Assembly (NCBI RefSeq): GCF_001425305.1
Contig: NZ_LMEE01000001.1
Coordinates: 1,316,183-1,380,182, forward strand
Direction of reading: 5' to 3'
DNA length: 64,000 nt
Source: Phenylobacterium sp. Root1290
Lineage (GTDB): Bacteria; Pseudomonadota; Alphaproteobacteria; Caulobacterales; Caulobacteraceae
The position numbers were made by a program, and so were the translations under genes. Every line of letters starts with the position of its first letter. Position 1 is the first letter of the stretch. Below are positions 1 through 56,184 of the stretch, piece after piece. The notes under the pieces are model-generated. The model was not told the DNA's origin. It was given only the letters and a program-made list of their open reading frames with translations, and did no database searches.

Positions 1-1790
<1,790 letters not shown>

Positions 1791-2017
1791 GGCCCGCGTC
1801 CGGCTCTGCCCAGAAACCTAGCTTCGCGGTGATGGCGGTTGGCTCTGGCCGCCGCCCGCCTGATCGAACACGTTGTCATCCCTACGGCGCGACCTTCGAT
1901 GGGTCTCGATCGATGCGCCCGCCCCCTGCGGTGGGCGGGGGGGTCTACCCGTGGGCAATGAACCTAGGAGACTGCCTCGCGCCGGGCGCGTAGCCTACTG
2001 AACTACGGGGGAAAGGC

Positions 2018-2515
2018 ATGGAGGTCACCGTGTCCCCAATCGACGAACACCCATCTTTCGCCGCGGAATCGTCAGCCACGACGGGCAGGAAAAAAGCCTC
2101 CGCCGGATCGTCCGAACAGGCGGTCGCGCCGCTCCTATCCATCAACGTCGATCCCGGCACGGGACGGGTGATCAGCATCGAGAGCATGGACGCCTCCGGC
2201 GATCGACGGGCGCTCTCCGATGAAGAGCGCACCCGCCTCTCCGAGCTGAAGCCTGAAGCCACATTGCGAGACATCGTTGAACGGGCGTTCGAGGCTGGCG
2301 TCGCCTGCGTTCTGGGCCAGCAGGCCCGGGGCGAAGAAACTCCGGAGTCCGAAGAGGACGCCGAGCTGTCGCGGATGCTGTTGCGTTCCTTAATCGCCGA
2401 AAGCGCCGCCAAGCGCCTAACCCAGTTCGATGTCTTGAGCCCCGCGATCGTGGGAACGCTGATCGAGCGGGCCGCGAGCCGCGACCGGAACTCCGACGCC
2501 GGCGCCGACCACTAA
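2018..2515 (+). CDS. hypothetical acidic protein
   Basis: 165 residues, not recognised. The ATG at 2018 is preceded by GGGGGAAAGG, a usable ribosome binding site; an in-frame GTG at 2030 is a weaker alternative. No signal peptide, membrane segment or cysteine motif is apparent. The first 40 residues look disordered (Ser, Ala, Thr, Lys). From about residue 45 the protein is rich in Glu, Arg, Ala and Leu and probably helical, with an acidic stretch EETPESEEDAE near residue 110. It lies 93 bp upstream of the internal-repeat protein on the same strand, so the two may be co-transcribed, but nothing else links them. Confidence 0.7.
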   Translation: MEVTVSPIDEHPSFAAESSATTGRKKASAGSSEQAVAPLLSINVDPGTGRVISIESMDASGDRRALSDEERTRLSELKPEATLRDIVERAFEAGVACVLGQQARGEETPESEEDAELSRMLLRSLIAESAAKRLTQFDVLSPAIVGTLIERAASRDRNSDAGADH

Positions 2516-2608
2516 ACACCCACGTCAAGTCGGGGATGAAGCGAACCGCGCCGTCCGGCCAGCGTGCCGTTCGACGCGGCCTACCAGCAAACACACGAGG
2601 AGCACTCG

Positions 2609-3307
2609 ATGACGTTTGACACGACTTATGACGGCAATGGCAGAGACACCGACGACATCGCCCGCCTGCTCGCCGGCGGCAAGATACGAGGCCGCAAGCG
2701 CATGCGGCGGCTGCTGATCGCCCGTCTCATCAGCGACAAGCGTGGCGCCGAAGCCGACGACGAGGATGAAGGCATCGACGAAGATGAAGGCGGCGGCGAA
2801 GACCAGCGCCTCGCCCGCCTCCTGGTCGGCGGCGCCGTGCGCAAGCGCCGACTTCGGCGCCTGGTGCTCGCCCAGATGCTCCGTCAACGAGGCGACGAAG
2901 ACGAGGGCGAGGGCATCGAGGATGAGGAAAGCGACGACGAGGATCATAACCTCGCCCGCCTCCTGGTCGGCGGGGCCGCGCGCAAGCGGCGTCTGCGTCG
3001 CCTGGTGCTCGCCCAGATGCTCCGTCAACGCGGCGAAGAAGATGAGGACGAGGGTATCGAGGACGAGGAAGGCGGCGATGAGGATCGGCGTCTGGCTCAA
3101 GTCCTGGTCGGCGGCGCCAGGCGCCGGCGGCGTCTGCGCCGACTGGTCCTGGCCCACGTGCTCAGCGAGCGCAGAGACGAGGACGAGGGCGAAGGCATCG
3201 AGGATGACGACGATGATCGCCAACTGGTGCGCTTCCTCGTCGGTCAAAAGGCCGTGCGTCGGGGCCGGGCCCGGCGAATGGCCGGCGCCCGCGAACTGAG
3301 GCACTAG
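2609..3307 (+). CDS. internal-repeat protein of alternating basic and acidic blocks
   Basis: 232 residues, no family recognised. ATG at 2609 chosen because CGAGGAG lies 6 nt upstream; an in-frame start at 2564 has no such site. After a 16-residue leader the protein is four full units and one partial: residues 17-67, 68-114, 115-161, 162-205 and 206-232. Each unit opens with a hydrophobic-basic block (LARLLVGGAxRKRRLRRLVL) likely to form an amphipathic helix, then AQMLRQRG, then a 15-20 residue run of Asp and Glu containing EGIED. Units 2 and 3 are nearly identical, also in DNA, which points to recent tandem duplication. It has no cysteine, no signal peptide and no classical membrane span. Strong charge alternation suggests polyelectrolyte binding or self-association; that is inference only. 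Confidence 0.8.
   Translation: MTFDTTYDGNGRDTDDIARLLAGGKIRGRKRMRRLLIARLISDKRGAEADDEDEGIDEDEGGGEDQRLARLLVGGAVRKRRLRRLVLAQMLRQRGDEDEGEGIEDEESDDEDHNLARLLVGGAARKRRLRRLVLAQMLRQRGEEDEDEGIEDEEGGDEDRRLAQVLVGGARRRRRLRRLVLAHVLSERRDEDEGEGIEDDDDDRQLVRFLVGQKAVRRGRARRMAGARELRH
2657..3304 (+). repeat. in-gene tandem repeat, about 141-bp period, 5 units
   Basis: Units at 2657-2809 (153 bp), 2810-2950 (141 bp), 2951-3091 (141 bp), 3092-3223 (132 bp) and a partial unit at 3224-3304. The phrases ctcgcccgcctcctggtcgg and ctggtgctcgcccagatgct recur almost unchanged in units 2 and 3. Length differences are multiples of three, so the frame is kept. Confidence 0.9.
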
Positions 3308-3317
3308 GCCAATCACT

Positions 3318-3347
3318 GCCGGAGGGGCTCGCCCCTCCGGCTTCCTT
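3318..3347 (+). terminator. intrinsic terminator of the repeat-protein gene
   Basis: Perfect 10-bp stem GCCGGAGGGG / CCCCTCCGGC with loop CTCG (3318-3341), then TTCCTTA. It starts 10 nt after the repeat-protein stop codon and sits between convergent genes, so it may also stop transcription from the MFS gene on the other strand. Confidence 0.75.
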
Positions 3348-3367
3348 ACCGCAAGCCGCGATGGGTC

Positions 3368-4537
3368 TTACGGCTTCTCACCAACGGCCACCTGCGGCCT
3401 TGGGAACACGAAGGCCAGGGTCATCAGCGCCGCCAGCGACATGGCCAGGGCCACCGCCGGGATCGCCGGCACGCCGTAGCTCGCCAGAGCCAGCCCGCCC
3501 ATGGCCGAGCCCAGCGCCTGGCCGACCGAGATCACCGAGCCGTTGAGGGCCAGCGCCACCGGCGCGCCCTCGGTCATCGAGATCAGCCGCGCCTGGATCA
3601 CCGGGGTGATCGAGAACAGCGCCGTGGCCGCCACGAAGATGCCCAGCGCCACCAGCGTCGCGCTCGGCCAGCCGGCCGGGGCGACCTGGTGCGTGGCCGC
3701 GAAATGGATGGTCATGGCCGTCGCCTGGATCGCAAAGCCGATCAGGATCCAGCTGCGCCCGAGATCACGGTTGGCCGCCCGCGCGCCCAGCCACAGGCCG
3801 AGGATGGAGCCAAAGCCGATCATCGACTGGAAGGCGCCCACCCCTGCGCCGGTGACGCCCGCCCCGACCCGCACGATCGGCGCGATGTAGAGGTTCAGCG
3901 TCATGTTGGCGGCGAAGGCCAGGAAGGTGGTCAGGTAGAGCGGCCAGATCGCCGGCAGGTCCAGGGTTCCCCCGGCGCGCTTCGGCGGCGCCGGCACCCG
4001 CGGCAGGAAGAACAGCACCCCGACCAGGGCGATGGCCGACAGCGTCGCCGCGGTCAGGAAGGTCGCCCGCCAACCGAACAGGTCGCCGACGACGCTGCCG
4101 ATAGGAATGCCGATCACGAAGGCCAGTGTCATGCCGCCCGAAACCATGGCCAGGGCCGAGCCGCGCCGCTCGGGCGGAGCCAGCGAAGCGGCCGCTACGC
4201 TGGCGGCCGGACCCGACATCGCGCCAGCCAGGCCGGCCAGCGCCCGCAGCACCATCAGCGCCTCGAAGTTGGGCGTCAGGGCGCAGGCGATGTGCAGCAC
4301 CAGGCCAAGGCTCAGGCCGACGATCACCATGATCTTGCGGTCGACCCGCGCGAACAGCCAGGCGGCCACCGGCCCCAATACCGCCGAGGTCAGCACGAAC
4401 ACCGTCTGCAACTGCCCGGCCACGGCCGTCGTCACGCCAAGGTCGGCGGCCAGCGCCTCCAGCAGGCCGGCGAAGATGAAGGCTCCGGACCCGAACGCGA
4501 ACGTCACCATGGTCAGAACGAAAATGCGCGGGTTCAT
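3368..4537 (-). CDS. MFS transporter, DHA1/AraJ-like
   Basis: 389-residue inner-membrane transporter of the major facilitator superfamily with about 12 hydrophobic segments. It begins MNPRIFVLTMVTFAFGSGAF and carries the DHA1-type loop LFARVDRKIMVIVGLSLG between helices 2 and 3. This group exports drugs, sugars or small metabolites by proton antiport; the substrate cannot be told from sequence. ATG at 4537 was preferred over an upstream ATG at 4579 because the upstream 14 residues (MSGGRYGRAAKLGC) are polar and the first helix starts right after the internal Met. It is the last gene of a leftward run that includes the PepSY protein and TonB receptor but is separated from them by 63 bp. Confidence 0.85.
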   Translation of the reverse strand: MNPRIFVLTMVTFAFGSGAFIFAGLLEALAADLGVTTAVAGQLQTVFVLTSAVLGPVAAWLFARVDRKIMVIVGLSLGLVLHIACALTPNFEALMVLRALAGLAGAMSGPAASVAAASLAPPERRGSALAMVSGGMTLAFVIGIPIGSVVGDLFGWRATFLTAATLSAIALVGVLFFLPRVPAPPKRAGGTLDLPAIWPLYLTTFLAFAANMTLNLYIAPIVRVGAGVTGAGVGAFQSMIGFGSILGLWLGARAANRDLGRSWILIGFAIQATAMTIHFAATHQVAPAGWPSATLVALGIFVAATALFSITPVIQARLISMTEGAPVALALNGSVISVGQALGSAMGGLALASYGVPAIPAVALAMSLAALMTLAFVFPRPQVAVGEKP

Positions 4538-4600
4538 GCAGCCGAGCTTAGCCGCGCGACCATACCGGCCGCCAGACATTTGAGAGCGCGGTTCGCCGAG

Positions 4601-5701
4601 CTAGGCCGCCGCGGGCTTGGCGACCGGGCGCTTGCGCTTGCGTTTCAGGGTCTTGGGTCCCGCCCAGAAGGTCCAGACCGCCAGGGATCCCAGCAGGGCG
4701 AGCGACAGACCCGAGAGCGTCATCACCAACCGATACGGCAGCCCGCCGACCTTGGCGGCGTGGATCGGATACTCGGCGTTGGCGATTCGCACGCCCAGCG
4801 GCTGGGTCAGGGCGTCGCGGCTGGCGACCAGCCGGCCATCTGCGGGATCGAACCAGAACATGGTGCGGCCGTTGGGCAGCCATTCGGCCTGCTGGCGCAC
4901 CCTCAGCGAGATCAGGCCGCCGGGCTTGGTCGGCAGGCTGATTATCCGCAGTTCGCCGTCGGGATACATCGCCCGCGCCGCCTCGAGCAGCGCGGCGTAG
5001 TCGATGTCGGCCGCCTTCGGGCCGCCCTCGGTCTTGGGCGGTTTCTGCGCCTCGGCCATGACCGCAGGGCTGGAGAACGGCGCCAGCAGCACGTCCTCGA
5101 CCGCCGGCAAGGTCATCATCACCCCAGTCAGCATCGACACGAACAGCAGCGGCGCGGTCACGACGCCCAGGTCGCGGTGCTGACGCACCACGCCGTTGCG
5201 GCTCAGGTTCGAAGGCCATGGCCGAAGGGCGAACAGCCGCCGCGCCGGCCACCACAGGATCACCCCGGTGACCACGAAGCCCAGGCCGACCAGAGCCATG
5301 ATCCCGGCCGCCAGTTCGCCGACATCGGCGGCCAGCAGGTGATGGTGCAGGTCGAACAGCCAGATCTCCGGTCGCTCCCACTTGGACGACCACGCCGCGA
5401 CGATCTCGCCGCTCTGGTCGGCATAGGCCCCGCGCGCGGGCTCGACATAGTTCAGGCGATGCAGCCCCAGCCGCTCGCTGGCCAGCACGATGGAACGCGG
5501 CGCATCGGGCCCTGAGAATATCTTTCCAACGGTCGCTGCAACCGCCGCCGTGTCCTGGTTCTGCGCGTCGGCGGCGTGCGGCAGGGTCGCGCGCAGGAAG
5601 TCGTCCTTGTGGACCAGCAGCGCGCCCGAGAGGCCCAGCACCGCCAGGAAGAGGCCGATCAGGCCTCCGGCCCATCGGTGCAGGAGCCGCAGCGTTCCCA
5701 T
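4601..5701 (-). CDS. PepSY-associated TM helix protein (iron-regulated membrane protein)
   Basis: 366-residue inner-membrane protein of the PepSY-TM (PiuB-like) family, often encoded with siderophore receptors and thought to help ferric-siderophore reduction or handling. N-terminal helix RLLHRWAGGLIGLFLAVLGLSGALL is typical, including the paired His/Trp. Further spans are near residues 150 (IMALVGLGFVVTGVILWWPARR), 195 and 335; the tail is basic (KRKRKRP). The start codon overlaps the TonB receptor stop codon by one base (TGATG at 5703-5699), so translation is probably coupled. It should be Fur-controlled from the promoter in front of the receptor. Confidence 0.88.
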   Translation of the reverse strand: MGTLRLLHRWAGGLIGLFLAVLGLSGALLVHKDDFLRATLPHAADAQNQDTAAVAATVGKIFSGPDAPRSIVLASERLGLHRLNYVEPARGAYADQSGEIVAAWSSKWERPEIWLFDLHHHLLAADVGELAAGIMALVGLGFVVTGVILWWPARRLFALRPWPSNLSRNGVVRQHRDLGVVTAPLLFVSMLTGVMMTLPAVEDVLLAPFSSPAVMAEAQKPPKTEGGPKAADIDYAALLEAARAMYPDGELRIISLPTKPGGLISLRVRQQAEWLPNGRTMFWFDPADGRLVASRDALTQPLGVRIANAEYPIHAAKVGGLPYRLVMTLSGLSLALLGSLAVWTFWAGPKTLKRKRKRPVAKPAAA

Positions 5702-7857
5702 CAGAACCTGCGCTCGAACCCAAGCGTGAAGCTGCGGCCGCGGCCCGCGAAGTTGCGCAGGTTGTCGGTCGGGTTGCTCGTGTCGGAGGCGTAGCTCAGA
5801 TAGTACTCGTCCATCAGGTTCTGCACGCTGAAGATCACGTCGCCGAACCCTGCCTCATAGCGGACCGAGGCGTCGACCAGCGTGTAGCCGCCGAAGCTGT
5901 TGCGCGGATCTGCGCCGTCGAAGCTGCGCTCCAGATAGGACTGGCTCTGCAGACGAGCGGCCAGCGGACCGCTCTGATAGATCAGCGCGAAGTTGAAGCG
6001 GTCAGGCGAGATGTTGGCGCCGTCGAGGTCGATGTCGACGCTGCCGTCGCCGTTGCTGTCGGCACGGCCCTTCAGCTTGGCGTAGCCGGCGTTGACGCTG
6101 ACCCCGGGCACAGGCGTCCTGGCGGTGACGTTGAGCTCCAGGCCCTCGATCTCCACCCGTTGGCGCTGCACGTCGTAGACGGCGGTGGCCGGGTTGAGCA
6201 CCAGCAGCTGACCCAGCTTGGACTTGGACCAGAAGTAGGCGGCGCTGGCCTCGATCGGCCCGTACTTCCACTCGGCGCCGATTTCCTGGTTGTCGGAAAC
6301 CACCGGGCTGATGTCGAGGAAGCTGTCGACGTCGACGCCGTTGCGGTTCACCGCCCGCAGGATTCGGCCGACGTCGGGCACGGTGTAGCCCTCGGCGTAG
6401 CTGGCGTAGAGGCGCAGGCCCTCGACCGGGTTCACCACGATCCCGCCATTGACCAGCGTGGCGTCGAAGCTGGGCTCGCCGCCGCTGACCGCACGCGAGC
6501 CGTAGGTGGCCAGGGTGGTGTAGTCGCCGACCTTCAAGGTCACCGATTCATAGCGGGCGCCGCCAGCCAGATGCACCTTGTCGCCGAACAGGGCGAGGTT
6601 GGCCTGCACGAACGGCGCGACGCTGCGGAACTCGGTCGGCGGCACCCAGACGCGGTTGGTGGCGATCAGCGACTGCGCGGTCTCGTCGCGCAGGGTGTCG
6701 AGGCCCAGCGTCGCGTTCAATCCGGGCACGAACGGCACTTCACGCTCGTAACTGGCGCGGGCGCCGAGCTTTTCGGACTCGTTGGAGGACTGGTCGAACA
6801 GCGTCCCGACCGGAGCCAGGCGCACGTCCTGGAAGGTGGCGCTGCGGTCTCCGCCGAACGTGTCGCGCGTGCGGTTGTAGAACAGCTGGGCGTTCAGATC
6901 GCCGCCCCACAGGTCGTTGTCGGTCAGGGCCAGGGAGACCGTCTCGACCTTGTTGGCGGCCGTCCGGCCTTCCGGCGCGCCGCGCACCGAACTGGCTGGG
7001 CGGTTCTTGGTGCGGTCGCCCGCCACGATCACATAGTCGCCGTCGCCCTTCAGCTCGAAGCGGTTGGCGACGAGGTCGAGGCGCAGGCTTTCGTCGATCT
7101 GCCAGCCGAACCGGCCGAAGATCGAGGTGCTGACCGAGTCCTGGATCTCGCCCTGGGTGTTGTCGACGCCGATCCGATCGCCGTGTCCGTCGTAAAAGGC
7201 GCCGCGCGCCTCGTAAGCCAGGCCCAGGGTGGCGTCGAAGGCGCCGCTGCGCCAGGCGCCCAGACCCGCCGTCTTCCAGCCAAGGCCATCGCCGTGCGCG
7301 CGCGCGTCGGTGCTGGCCTGGACCAGCACGCGGCCGGTCAGGCCGTCTTCCTTGGGCGGGCCGACGGTCACCTGGTTGACCACGCCGCCGGTGGCGCCGA
7401 TGCCCTGCAGAGCGTTCGATCCGTAGATCAACTCGACATGATCGATGAAGAAGGCGTCGATGGTGAAGCCGTCGCGCGAGCCGTCCCGGATCGGGGTCGA
7501 CTGCGGGATGCCGTTAATGGCGAACAGCGGCGAGCGGCCGCGCAGGGTCTCCCCGCTGCCCGACAGCTTCTGGCGCGTCGGCGAGAAGGACGGCGACAGC
7601 GCGGACACCGCATCGACGATCGAACCGCTGATCGAGACCTGCTGCGATAGGGCGGTGGAGTCGACCACGTCCACCGTCATCGGCAGGGCGCTGGCCGGCA
7701 GGTTGGTCCGCGCCGCGGTGATGACCAGTTCGGAGACTTCGGTCGCGGCGGCGTCGTCAGCGAGCGCCTGTCCTCCGGCCATCAAGGCCAGCATGCTGGC
7801 CCCCGCCGCCAACAGGCCTCCACGCGCGATCCGCGCGACGTTGCTACCCTTAGTCAT
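5701..7857 (-). CDS. TonB-dependent siderophore receptor
   Basis: 718-residue outer-membrane receptor: signal peptide (to about ...GGQALADD), TonB-box-like EVSELVITAA, plug domain with YGSNALQGIGATGGVVNQVT, then a 22-strand barrel ending in aromatic FTLGFERRF. Such receptors import ferric siderophores or other scarce ligands using TonB energy. ATG at 7857 (MTKGSN) is used; an upstream in-frame start at 7920 would add a non-signal-like stretch and overlap the promoter. The Fur-box promoter directly upstream and the coupled PepSY protein downstream make ferric-siderophore uptake the best assignment. Confidence 0.92.
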   Translation of the reverse strand: MTKGSNVARIARGGLLAAGASMLALMAGGQALADDAAATEVSELVITAARTNLPASALPMTVDVVDSTALSQQVSISGSIVDAVSALSPSFSPTRQKLSGSGETLRGRSPLFAINGIPQSTPIRDGSRDGFTIDAFFIDHVELIYGSNALQGIGATGGVVNQVTVGPPKEDGLTGRVLVQASTDARAHGDGLGWKTAGLGAWRSGAFDATLGLAYEARGAFYDGHGDRIGVDNTQGEIQDSVSTSIFGRFGWQIDESLRLDLVANRFELKGDGDYVIVAGDRTKNRPASSVRGAPEGRTAANKVETVSLALTDNDLWGGDLNAQLFYNRTRDTFGGDRSATFQDVRLAPVGTLFDQSSNESEKLGARASYEREVPFVPGLNATLGLDTLRDETAQSLIATNRVWVPPTEFRSVAPFVQANLALFGDKVHLAGGARYESVTLKVGDYTTLATYGSRAVSGGEPSFDATLVNGGIVVNPVEGLRLYASYAEGYTVPDVGRILRAVNRNGVDVDSFLDISPVVSDNQEIGAEWKYGPIEASAAYFWSKSKLGQLLVLNPATAVYDVQRQRVEIEGLELNVTARTPVPGVSVNAGYAKLKGRADSNGDGSVDIDLDGANISPDRFNFALIYQSGPLAARLQSQSYLERSFDGADPRNSFGGYTLVDASVRYEAGFGDVIFSVQNLMDEYYLSYASDTSNPTDNLRNFAGRGRSFTLGFERRF

Positions 7858-7890
7858 GCAATCCCCGACACGTCCTGTTCCAGACCGCGC

Positions 7891-7920
7891 TCTATAGCGG
7901 AGAATGCGAATTACTCTCAA
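7891..7920 (-). promoter_or_regulatory. sigma70-like promoter overlapped by a Fur box
   Basis: On the minus strand TTGAGA (7920-7915), 18-nt spacer, TATAGA (7896-7891) forms a promoter 34 bp before the receptor ATG. The spacer holds an imperfect palindrome, plus strand GAGAATGCGAATTACTCTC (7900-7918), close to the proteobacterial Fur pattern AATGCGAATnATTCTCA. Fe-Fur binding here would block RNA polymerase when iron is sufficient. Seen directly: the sequence and spacing; regulation is inferred. Confidence 0.78.
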
Positions 7921-55323: not shown

Positions 55324-56184
55324 ATGACCCCACACGTACAGACATTCTTCGACAAGGCCACCTCGACCGCGACCCACCTGGTGATCGACCCCGCCACCAG
55401 GACCGCGGCGATCATCGACCCTGTGCTGGACTTCGAGCCCAAGGCCGCGCGGCTCTCGACCGCCTCGGCCGATGCGGTGCTGGAGGCCGTGCGGGAGCAA
55501 GGTCTGACGCTGGCCTACGTCCTGGAGACCCATGCCCACGCCGACCACTTGTCGGCCGCCGACTACATCCGCCGCAAGACAGGCGCCGAGGTGGTGATCG
55601 GCGCGGAGATCACTCAGGTCCAGAAGACCTTCATCCCCGTGTTCGAAGCCGACGACGCCGACGACAGCGGCCACGCCTTCGACCGCCTGATCGCCGAGGG
55701 CGACGAGCTGCCGCTTGGCGAGCTGACCGTGCGCGTCCTGCACACGCCCGGTCATACCCCCGCCTGCGTGACCTATCTGATCGGTGACGCAGCCTTTGTC
55801 GGCGACACCCTCTTCATGCCCGACTACGGAACCGCGCGCGCCGACTTCCCCGGCGGGAATGCGGAGACGCTCTTCAGGTCGATCCGCAAGATCATGGCGC
55901 TGCCCGGCGCGACGCGGGTGTTCGTCGGCCACGACTACCTGCCGGCCGGCCGCGAGATCTTCGCCTGGGAGACCACCGTGGCCGACGAGCGGGCGCGCAA
56001 CATCCACGCCCATGACGGCGTCGACGAGGCCGCTTTCGTGGCCATGCGCCAGGCGCGCGACGCGACCTTGGACGCGCCGACCCTGATCCTGCCGTCGCTG
56101 CAGGTGAATATTCGCGGCGGAGCCCTGCCGCCGGCGAGCCCGGCCGGGAACGTCTTCCTGAAGCTTCCCGTTACGCTTGTCTGA
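55324..56184 (+). CDS. MBL-fold persulfide dioxygenase-like protein
   Basis: 286 residues. Metallo-beta-lactamase fold with THAHADHLSAADYI (metal ligands H-x-H-x-D-H at about residues 70-76), LHTPGHTPACVTYLIGD, VGDTLFMPDYGTARADFPGG and VFVGHDYLP. This is the ETHE1/Blh group: iron-dependent enzymes that oxidise glutathione persulfide to sulfite. AAGGAGG precedes ATG 55324. Divergent from the ArsR-type sensor; sulfite made here could leave through the TauE exporter. Confidence 0.92.
   Translation: MTPHVQTFFDKATSTATHLVIDPATRTAAIIDPVLDFEPKAARLSTASADAVLEAVREQGLTLAYVLETHAHADHLSAADYIRRKTGAEVVIGAEITQVQKTFIPVFEADDADDSGHAFDRLIAEGDELPLGELTVRVLHTPGHTPACVTYLIGDAAFVGDTLFMPDYGTARADFPGGNAETLFRSIRKIMALPGATRVFVGHDYLPAGREIFAWETTVADERARNIHAHDGVDEAAFVAMRQARDATLDAPTLILPSLQVNIRGGALPPASPAGNVFLKLPVTLV

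Follow-up and report, generated by a model that had tools for sequence, protein, structure and literature searches.

The locus raises two questions: whether a short open reading frame between gyrB and a transporter gene encodes a real protein, and what a protein made of alternating basic and acidic blocks would do. It lies in a window of 64,000 nucleotides from Phenylobacterium sp. Root1290, which is the whole stretch of DNA that was analysed. The features of this charge-block gene and its surroundings are listed in Table 1. The window's genome (G000) is compared mainly with G098, a second species of the genus, and with G003, which belongs to the same family but to a different genus-level group. 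G003 is apparently Caulobacter sp. 17J65-9 (contig NZ_JAAIVC010000012.1), which the unit used matches at 100%.

Table 1. Features of the charge-block locus, in window positions
Feature	Position	Strand	Description
Neighbour, orphan protein	2018..2515	+	165 aa; adjoins the charge-block gene in both G000 and G098; perhaps an operon partner
Charge-block repeat protein gene	2609..3307	+	ATG start; 232 aa; four full units and one partial unit
Unit 1	2651..2800	+	50 aa, starts at residue 15
Unit 2	2801..2941	+	47 aa, starts at residue 65
Unit 3	2942..3082	+	47 aa, starts at residue 112; DNA 86.5% identical to unit 2
Unit 4	3083..3214	+	44 aa, starts at residue 159
Unit 5, partial, C-terminal	3215..3304	+	30 aa, starts at residue 203; basic, without acidic linker
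Hairpin after the stop	3318..3341	+	10 pairs, 4-nt loop; sequence unchanged in G098; may be a terminator, though the T tail is poor

In the mechanical ORF list, the reading frame opens at a GTG at 2564 and gives 247 aa. The ATG at 2609 is preferred because GAGGAG lies 6 nt upstream of it. An antisense ORF (2525-3316, minus strand, 263 aa) that contains hydrophobic repeats spans the gene without a stop and has a 259 aa counterpart in G098. The charge-block protein itself has an orthologue in G098 with 93% amino acid identity. The two genes differ at 44 of 699 nt, and 30 of these differences fall at codon position 3. Among codons with a single change, there are 25 synonymous and 13 nonsynonymous differences in the sense frame, versus 5 and 31 in the frame of the plus-strand ORF 2742-3299 and 6 and 32 in the antisense ORF. 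Another antisense frame gives 24:16, near the sense frame, and no ORF of at least 80 aa spans the gene there. The earlier note had left room for an ORF that is not translated; the substitutions favour the sense frame, and an unread or antisense product is rejected. The rates of change (dN 0.035, dS 0.166, dN/dS about 0.21) indicate protein-level purifying selection on the charge-block frame. The constraint is weaker than on the neighbour 2018-2515 (0.12) and on the MFS gene (0.11). A real protein is also supported by G003, since the same architecture is present there in a protein that is 49% identical in the alignment.

The hairpin in Table 1 is not called by the terminator scan, and a sigma-70 promoter scan of 1700-3500 gives no match. 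The pattern of general-stress ECF-type promoters matches once in the window, at 56147, which is about the chance number. The stretch 1951-2017 ahead of the neighbour gene (GTGGGCAATGAACCTAGGAGA onward) is better conserved with G098 than the stretch closer to gyrB. It is possibly a promoter.

The protein begins with an acidic stretch ahead of unit 1. The four full units and one partial unit described earlier, each a basic helix followed by an acidic run, are found as described, the helix being a predicted one. In the DNA, the units form a direct repeat at 141-nt spacing, in which two copies match the reference copy at 84% and 76% identity. "Near-identical", the earlier wording for the DNA of units 2 and 3, is too strong for their identity (86.5% in G000 and 84.4% in G098; 90% in the helix core of the protein). 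When the same unit is compared across these two genomes, the DNA identity is 93-96%. Because units 2 and 3 differ more from each other than either does between genomes, this suggests that their duplication predates the split of the two species.

The unit consensus consists of D-R-R-x-V/A-R-L-L-V-A/G-G, an Arg cluster, L/M-L-L-A-H/Q-L-x-R-E and an acidic, Gly-containing linker. In the unit alignment, every full unit has hydrophobic patches on both sides of the Arg cluster, and these are predicted to be helical. Nine of the ten acidic linkers in the G000 and G003 proteins contain E-[G/S]-[I/F]. The shuffle probability of this motif is 0.045-0.19 per linker, and the repeats are homologous and hence not independent. 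The tenth linker (G003 unit 6) has GGFGGF in its place. Ile or Phe occurs in all ten linkers and is the sole large hydrophobic residue in five. The description of the protein as a block polyampholyte therefore holds for the charge blocks and is incomplete, since it leaves out the hydrophobic helical patches in the basic blocks and the motif in the linkers.

Acidic spacers between cationic segments that are in part hydrophobic might be expected of a polyprotein precursor, in which cationic peptides are kept harmless by the spacers and are cut out after synthesis. The GG found in most units would fit this explanation, as would the hydrophobic moment of the short first segment of the unit (0.36-0.74 in seven units, without a shuffle control). 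However, the second segment, which is rich in Arg, does not look amphipathic. Its moment is below the shuffle mean in all seven units tested, from the ten full units of the two proteins. Judged from the sequence, charged and hydrophobic residues are set apart there by their position along the chain, not by the face of the helix on which they lie. No signal peptide is visible by eye, and no protease or exporter is common to both genomic contexts among the genes scanned there. A precursor is very improbable.

The charge blocks are segregated more strongly than amino acid composition would give. In the window's protein, the segregation score is z = 10.7-10.9 over two runs, and none of 2000 shuffles reaches z 10.9. 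In the G003 relative, z = 11.0. The net charge is near zero in both proteins (-5 in G000 with five units, -4 in G003 with seven). The standard deviation of charge over 11 residues is 0.413, the highest value when the protein is joined to 53 ORFs of the window; the next value is 0.193. These ORFs were taken longest first at a length of at least 100 aa, GC3 > 0.78 and overlap < 60 nt, and the charge-block ORF (GC3 0.773) was added by hand. The G003 protein has a standard deviation of 0.351.

The earlier statement that no named family has this design stands for the libraries searched, as there is no credible match in Pfam, NCBIfam, PHROGs, PADLOC or PDB sequences, and no unit has a confident match to a characterised domain there. 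In NCBIfam, the search of the charge-block protein gives no match at all. The Pfam match to NusB (E 0.045) scores 14.6 bits against a curated cut-off of 23.1. The matches to Apelin (E 0.09, and 0.0096 for one of 12 units), TetR_C_18 (E 6.1), RecX_HTH2 (E 0.082, one unit), PhoH (E 0.25, one unit) and phrog_1064 (E 1.7) are weak. RTas337 of PADLOC, a DRT reverse transcriptase, is matched at E 0.0016 over residues 64-92 only, and no reverse transcriptase family is among the Pfam matches listed. The best PDB sequences have E 0.88 with the protein and 0.44 with the profile. The EF-hand or dockerin calcium loop reads DxDxDGxIxxxE; the linker DEDEGEGIEDEE is without Gly at loop position 6, and no EF-hand family is matched at E up to 10. 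The RNase E/G catalytic domain PF10150 has no match in the charge-block protein at E up to 10, and the genome's RNase E/G matches lie in two places, both away from the gene. Among the literature matches listed, there is no link to gas-vesicle proteins and no published description of such a protein, which does not prove that none exists.

The charge-block protein is rare, patchy and accessory. It is present in 3 of 199 genomes of the family and in 3 of 390 in a larger set, with one genome per species. Within the genus, eight of 101 genomes pass E 0.01 and two of these matches are real (G000 and G098). Each of the remaining six genomes has one partial match (E 4.2e-4 to 0.0096), and these matches are discounted, five of them by E-value; in the sixth, G074, no charge-block repeat occurs among ORFs of at least 100 aa. 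Matches are found in two of 398 genomes of the order and one of 385 of the class. G003 is not among these and was presumably not drawn. A profile made from G003 only matches one of 200 genomes of the phylum, which is the window's own. Phage and plasmid records give no match. In a genome contig collection, the window protein gives 485 pattern stretches with none confirmed, a search of small reach because its patterns are acidic low-complexity peptides; the G003 units give 20, of which the one confirmed is the G003 record itself. In viral contigs, 16 and 509 pattern stretches are found and none is confirmed.

The number of units differs between the two genus-level groups. From the chosen ATG, the G003 relative has 368 aa in seven units, the last of which is partial, and full units range from 44 to 54 aa across the relatives. 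The internal units of G003 (2 to 6) are 71-97% identical among themselves and 37-60% identical to the internal units of G000 (2 to 4). The last units of the two proteins are 55% identical and are mutual best matches by identity, although for the G000 unit the match is not the best by alignment score. The first units are 52% identical, which does not exceed what first units reach against internal ones (up to 59%). In the simplest reading of these identities, each lineage amplified or homogenised its internal units on its own, and the last unit is distinct.

In the window, the gene order is gyrB (PF00204, PF00986), the 165-aa neighbour, the charge-block gene and a convergent MFS gene (PF07690). 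The slot between gyrB and the MFS gene (1791-3367) varies among relatives. It holds the two genes in the window and in G098. In G190, a close relative in which gyrB is 97% and the MFS gene 94% identical, the stops are about 33 nt apart by eye and neither gene is found between them. In G207, a PEP-CTERM protein fills the slot. Of 40 relatives, 17 have a match to the MFS gene, and these include the window's genome and G098. Among the fetched loci with 1.5-kb flanks, it lies beside gyrB in G190 and G207 only. On the minus strand, 3368-7920 holds the MFS transporter, a PepSY-TM protein and a TonB-dependent receptor in a row, presumably a common type of cluster for the uptake of metals or siderophores.

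GC3 is 0.783 in the neighbour and 0.773 in the charge-block gene, versus 0.938 in gyrB and 0.921 in the MFS gene. As both values are lower than those of the flanks, this suggests a shared accessory origin of the two genes at this site. The low GC3, the empty site in G190 and the occurrence in 3 of 390 family genomes are what would be seen if this were a young accessory gene of little or no function, a chance survivor from a mobile or de novo segment that inserted there. Purifying selection on the frame is contrary to this, as is the same architecture in the second genus-level group. In G003, the charge-block gene is flanked by a LysE gene and by one that has no Pfam match, and its GC3 is 0.90, like its surroundings. 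Such an origin without function is unlikely.

The neighbour had been proposed as part of the same function. The pairing of the two genes in G000 and G098 and the low GC3 of both agree with this proposal. G003, however, has the longer charge-block gene and no credible match to the neighbour (best E 0.006, 23% identity across a stop), so the neighbour is not obligatory. The neighbour shows no diverged repeat unit (BLASTP E 0.32; profile domain scores about -2 bits). Its match in G083, one of three in 199 genomes, is discounted (E 3.7e-4, 25% identity across a stop, in a locus covered by a 654-aa ORF). It also matches phrog_27820 at E 0.008, and the follow-up matched none of 60 genus genomes, the window's own included, and none of 14 control genomes. 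In a further explanation, the charge-block protein acts in regulation or inhibition by docking on a single specific protein through its basic helix or E-[G/S]-[I/F]; the repeats would serve avidity, and the neighbour is a possible partner where present. The linker motif spans two genus-level groups, and the neighbour adjoins the gene in G000 and G098 and has a similarly low GC3, which would suit such a role. The neighbour shows no unit and is without a credible match in G003, which would not. This explanation is quite unlikely.

The structure models are weak. In the AlphaFold2 model of two tandem units (11 rows), each unit forms one long helix, at residues 2-30 and 46-81, joined by a low-confidence linker. 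The mean pLDDT is 60.9, the best 10-residue block reaches 79 and the pTM is 0.27, with no confident packing between the units. In the full-length model (mean pLDDT 46.3), units 1 to 4 each have the helix broken close to the GG. The two models disagree on whether a unit is predicted to be one helix or two, and both amount to isolated helices of low confidence. Another explanation is a self-assembling structural protein, in which helices of different copies would pack through the hydrophobic patches and opposite blocks would zip across chains into a fibre or coat without a nucleic acid ligand. The patches in each full unit, the Ile or Phe in all ten linkers, the near-neutral net charge and the 141-nt repeat register are compatible with such a protein. 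The range of full-unit lengths among the relatives is ill suited to a strict lattice, and the two-unit model does not support packing. Self-assembly of this kind is rather unlikely.

The preferred reading, a tentative one held at somewhat below even chance, is that the charge-block protein is a rare accessory multivalent scaffold that binds a polyanion or forms a condensate. The Arg-rich helix of each unit would act as a sticker for the polyanion, most likely RNA, with DNA or polyphosphate possible. The acidic linkers would hold the chain near neutral and curb aggregation, and they could compete for the basic helices or zip onto them, in the same copy or in others. Tandem units would then convert weak binding into a network, as a condensate or as a coat along the polymer. 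Hydrophobic patches by the Arg cluster and the Ile or Phe of the linker would add specific contacts between helices or with a partner. This scaffold is favoured because strong charge blocks and a near-zero net charge occur in both proteins despite five versus seven units. The unit number differs between relatives, which would fit a design driven by valence, and the single predicted helix per unit with a low-confidence linker in the two-unit model is also counted in its favour, as are the likenesses to RNase E and Ki-67 described below. Counted against it are the weak models, the constraint lower than that of the neighbouring genes, and the hydrophobic segments in the basic blocks, which are unlike the RNase E tail and suggest folding or protein binding. 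In addition, the G000 and G003 contexts share no visible partner gene that acts on RNA or DNA, and the adjoining gyrB is a core-genome landmark.

The nearest analogue in design is the C-terminal tail of RNase E of the same genome (L063 684-3329, minus strand, 881 aa). The disordered C-terminal tail of alphaproteobacterial RNase E, the BR-body scaffold, alternates Arg-rich and Asp/Glu-rich blocks as the charge-block protein does. In G000, the last 340 aa of RNase E have alternating charge blocks with z 8.7 and a standard deviation of 0.327 and are less strongly blocked than the charge-block protein (z 10.7 in the same run, standard deviation 0.413). The charge-block protein differs from this tail as a stand-alone tandem repeat without a nuclease domain and in the hydrophobic patches of its basic blocks. 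The comparison adds to the plausibility that the protein may bind nucleic acids or condense by charge, as first proposed, and the hydrophobic patches and linker motif point to specific contacts beyond the RNase E analogy. Caulobacter RNase E phase separates with RNA through arginine-rich charge blocks, according to the available text of two reports (PMC10412687, PMC12510024).

A further-reaching idea, which is a long shot, is that the protein is a minimal natural bacterial condensate former whose valence is set by duplication of one helix-plus-linker module. Such a protein would be an accessory equivalent of the charge-block tail of RNase E, possibly mobile by horizontal transfer, and in carrier strains it could draw in or redirect either RNA or RNase E bodies. 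If the scaffold works as proposed, the protein would offer a very clean module of one helix and one linker for testing valence and charge blocks in bacterial phase behaviour, with natural five-unit and seven-unit forms available for comparison. RNase E condensates already have a model organism in Caulobacter, where effects on those bodies would be directly testable. Even a protein that did not condense would represent an orphan family, one on which purifying selection acts and which matches nothing in the libraries searched.

The protein is similar to a known design principle and is not a shown member of any family tested. In Ki-67, a eukaryotic protein, repeats with alternating charge blocks raise phase separation; the likeness is one of description, in the available text of the source, and the Ki-67 blocks are made by phosphorylation, unlike those of the charge-block protein (PMC9106583). 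The pyrenoid linkers PYCO1 and EPYC1 are condensate-making repeat proteins, likewise similar by description in the accessible part of the report (PMC10288592). PYCO1 has sticker motifs and prion-like domains, and the client of both linkers is Rubisco. AlgP of Pseudomonas, a histone H1-like, DNA-binding protein associated with polyphosphate granules, resembles the charge-block protein in its basic low-complexity repeats, as far as the available text describes them (PMC9239181). These are KPAA repeats, whereas the 232-aa protein has acidic blocks, six Lys and no Pro, and so lacks the Lys/Ala/Pro composition.
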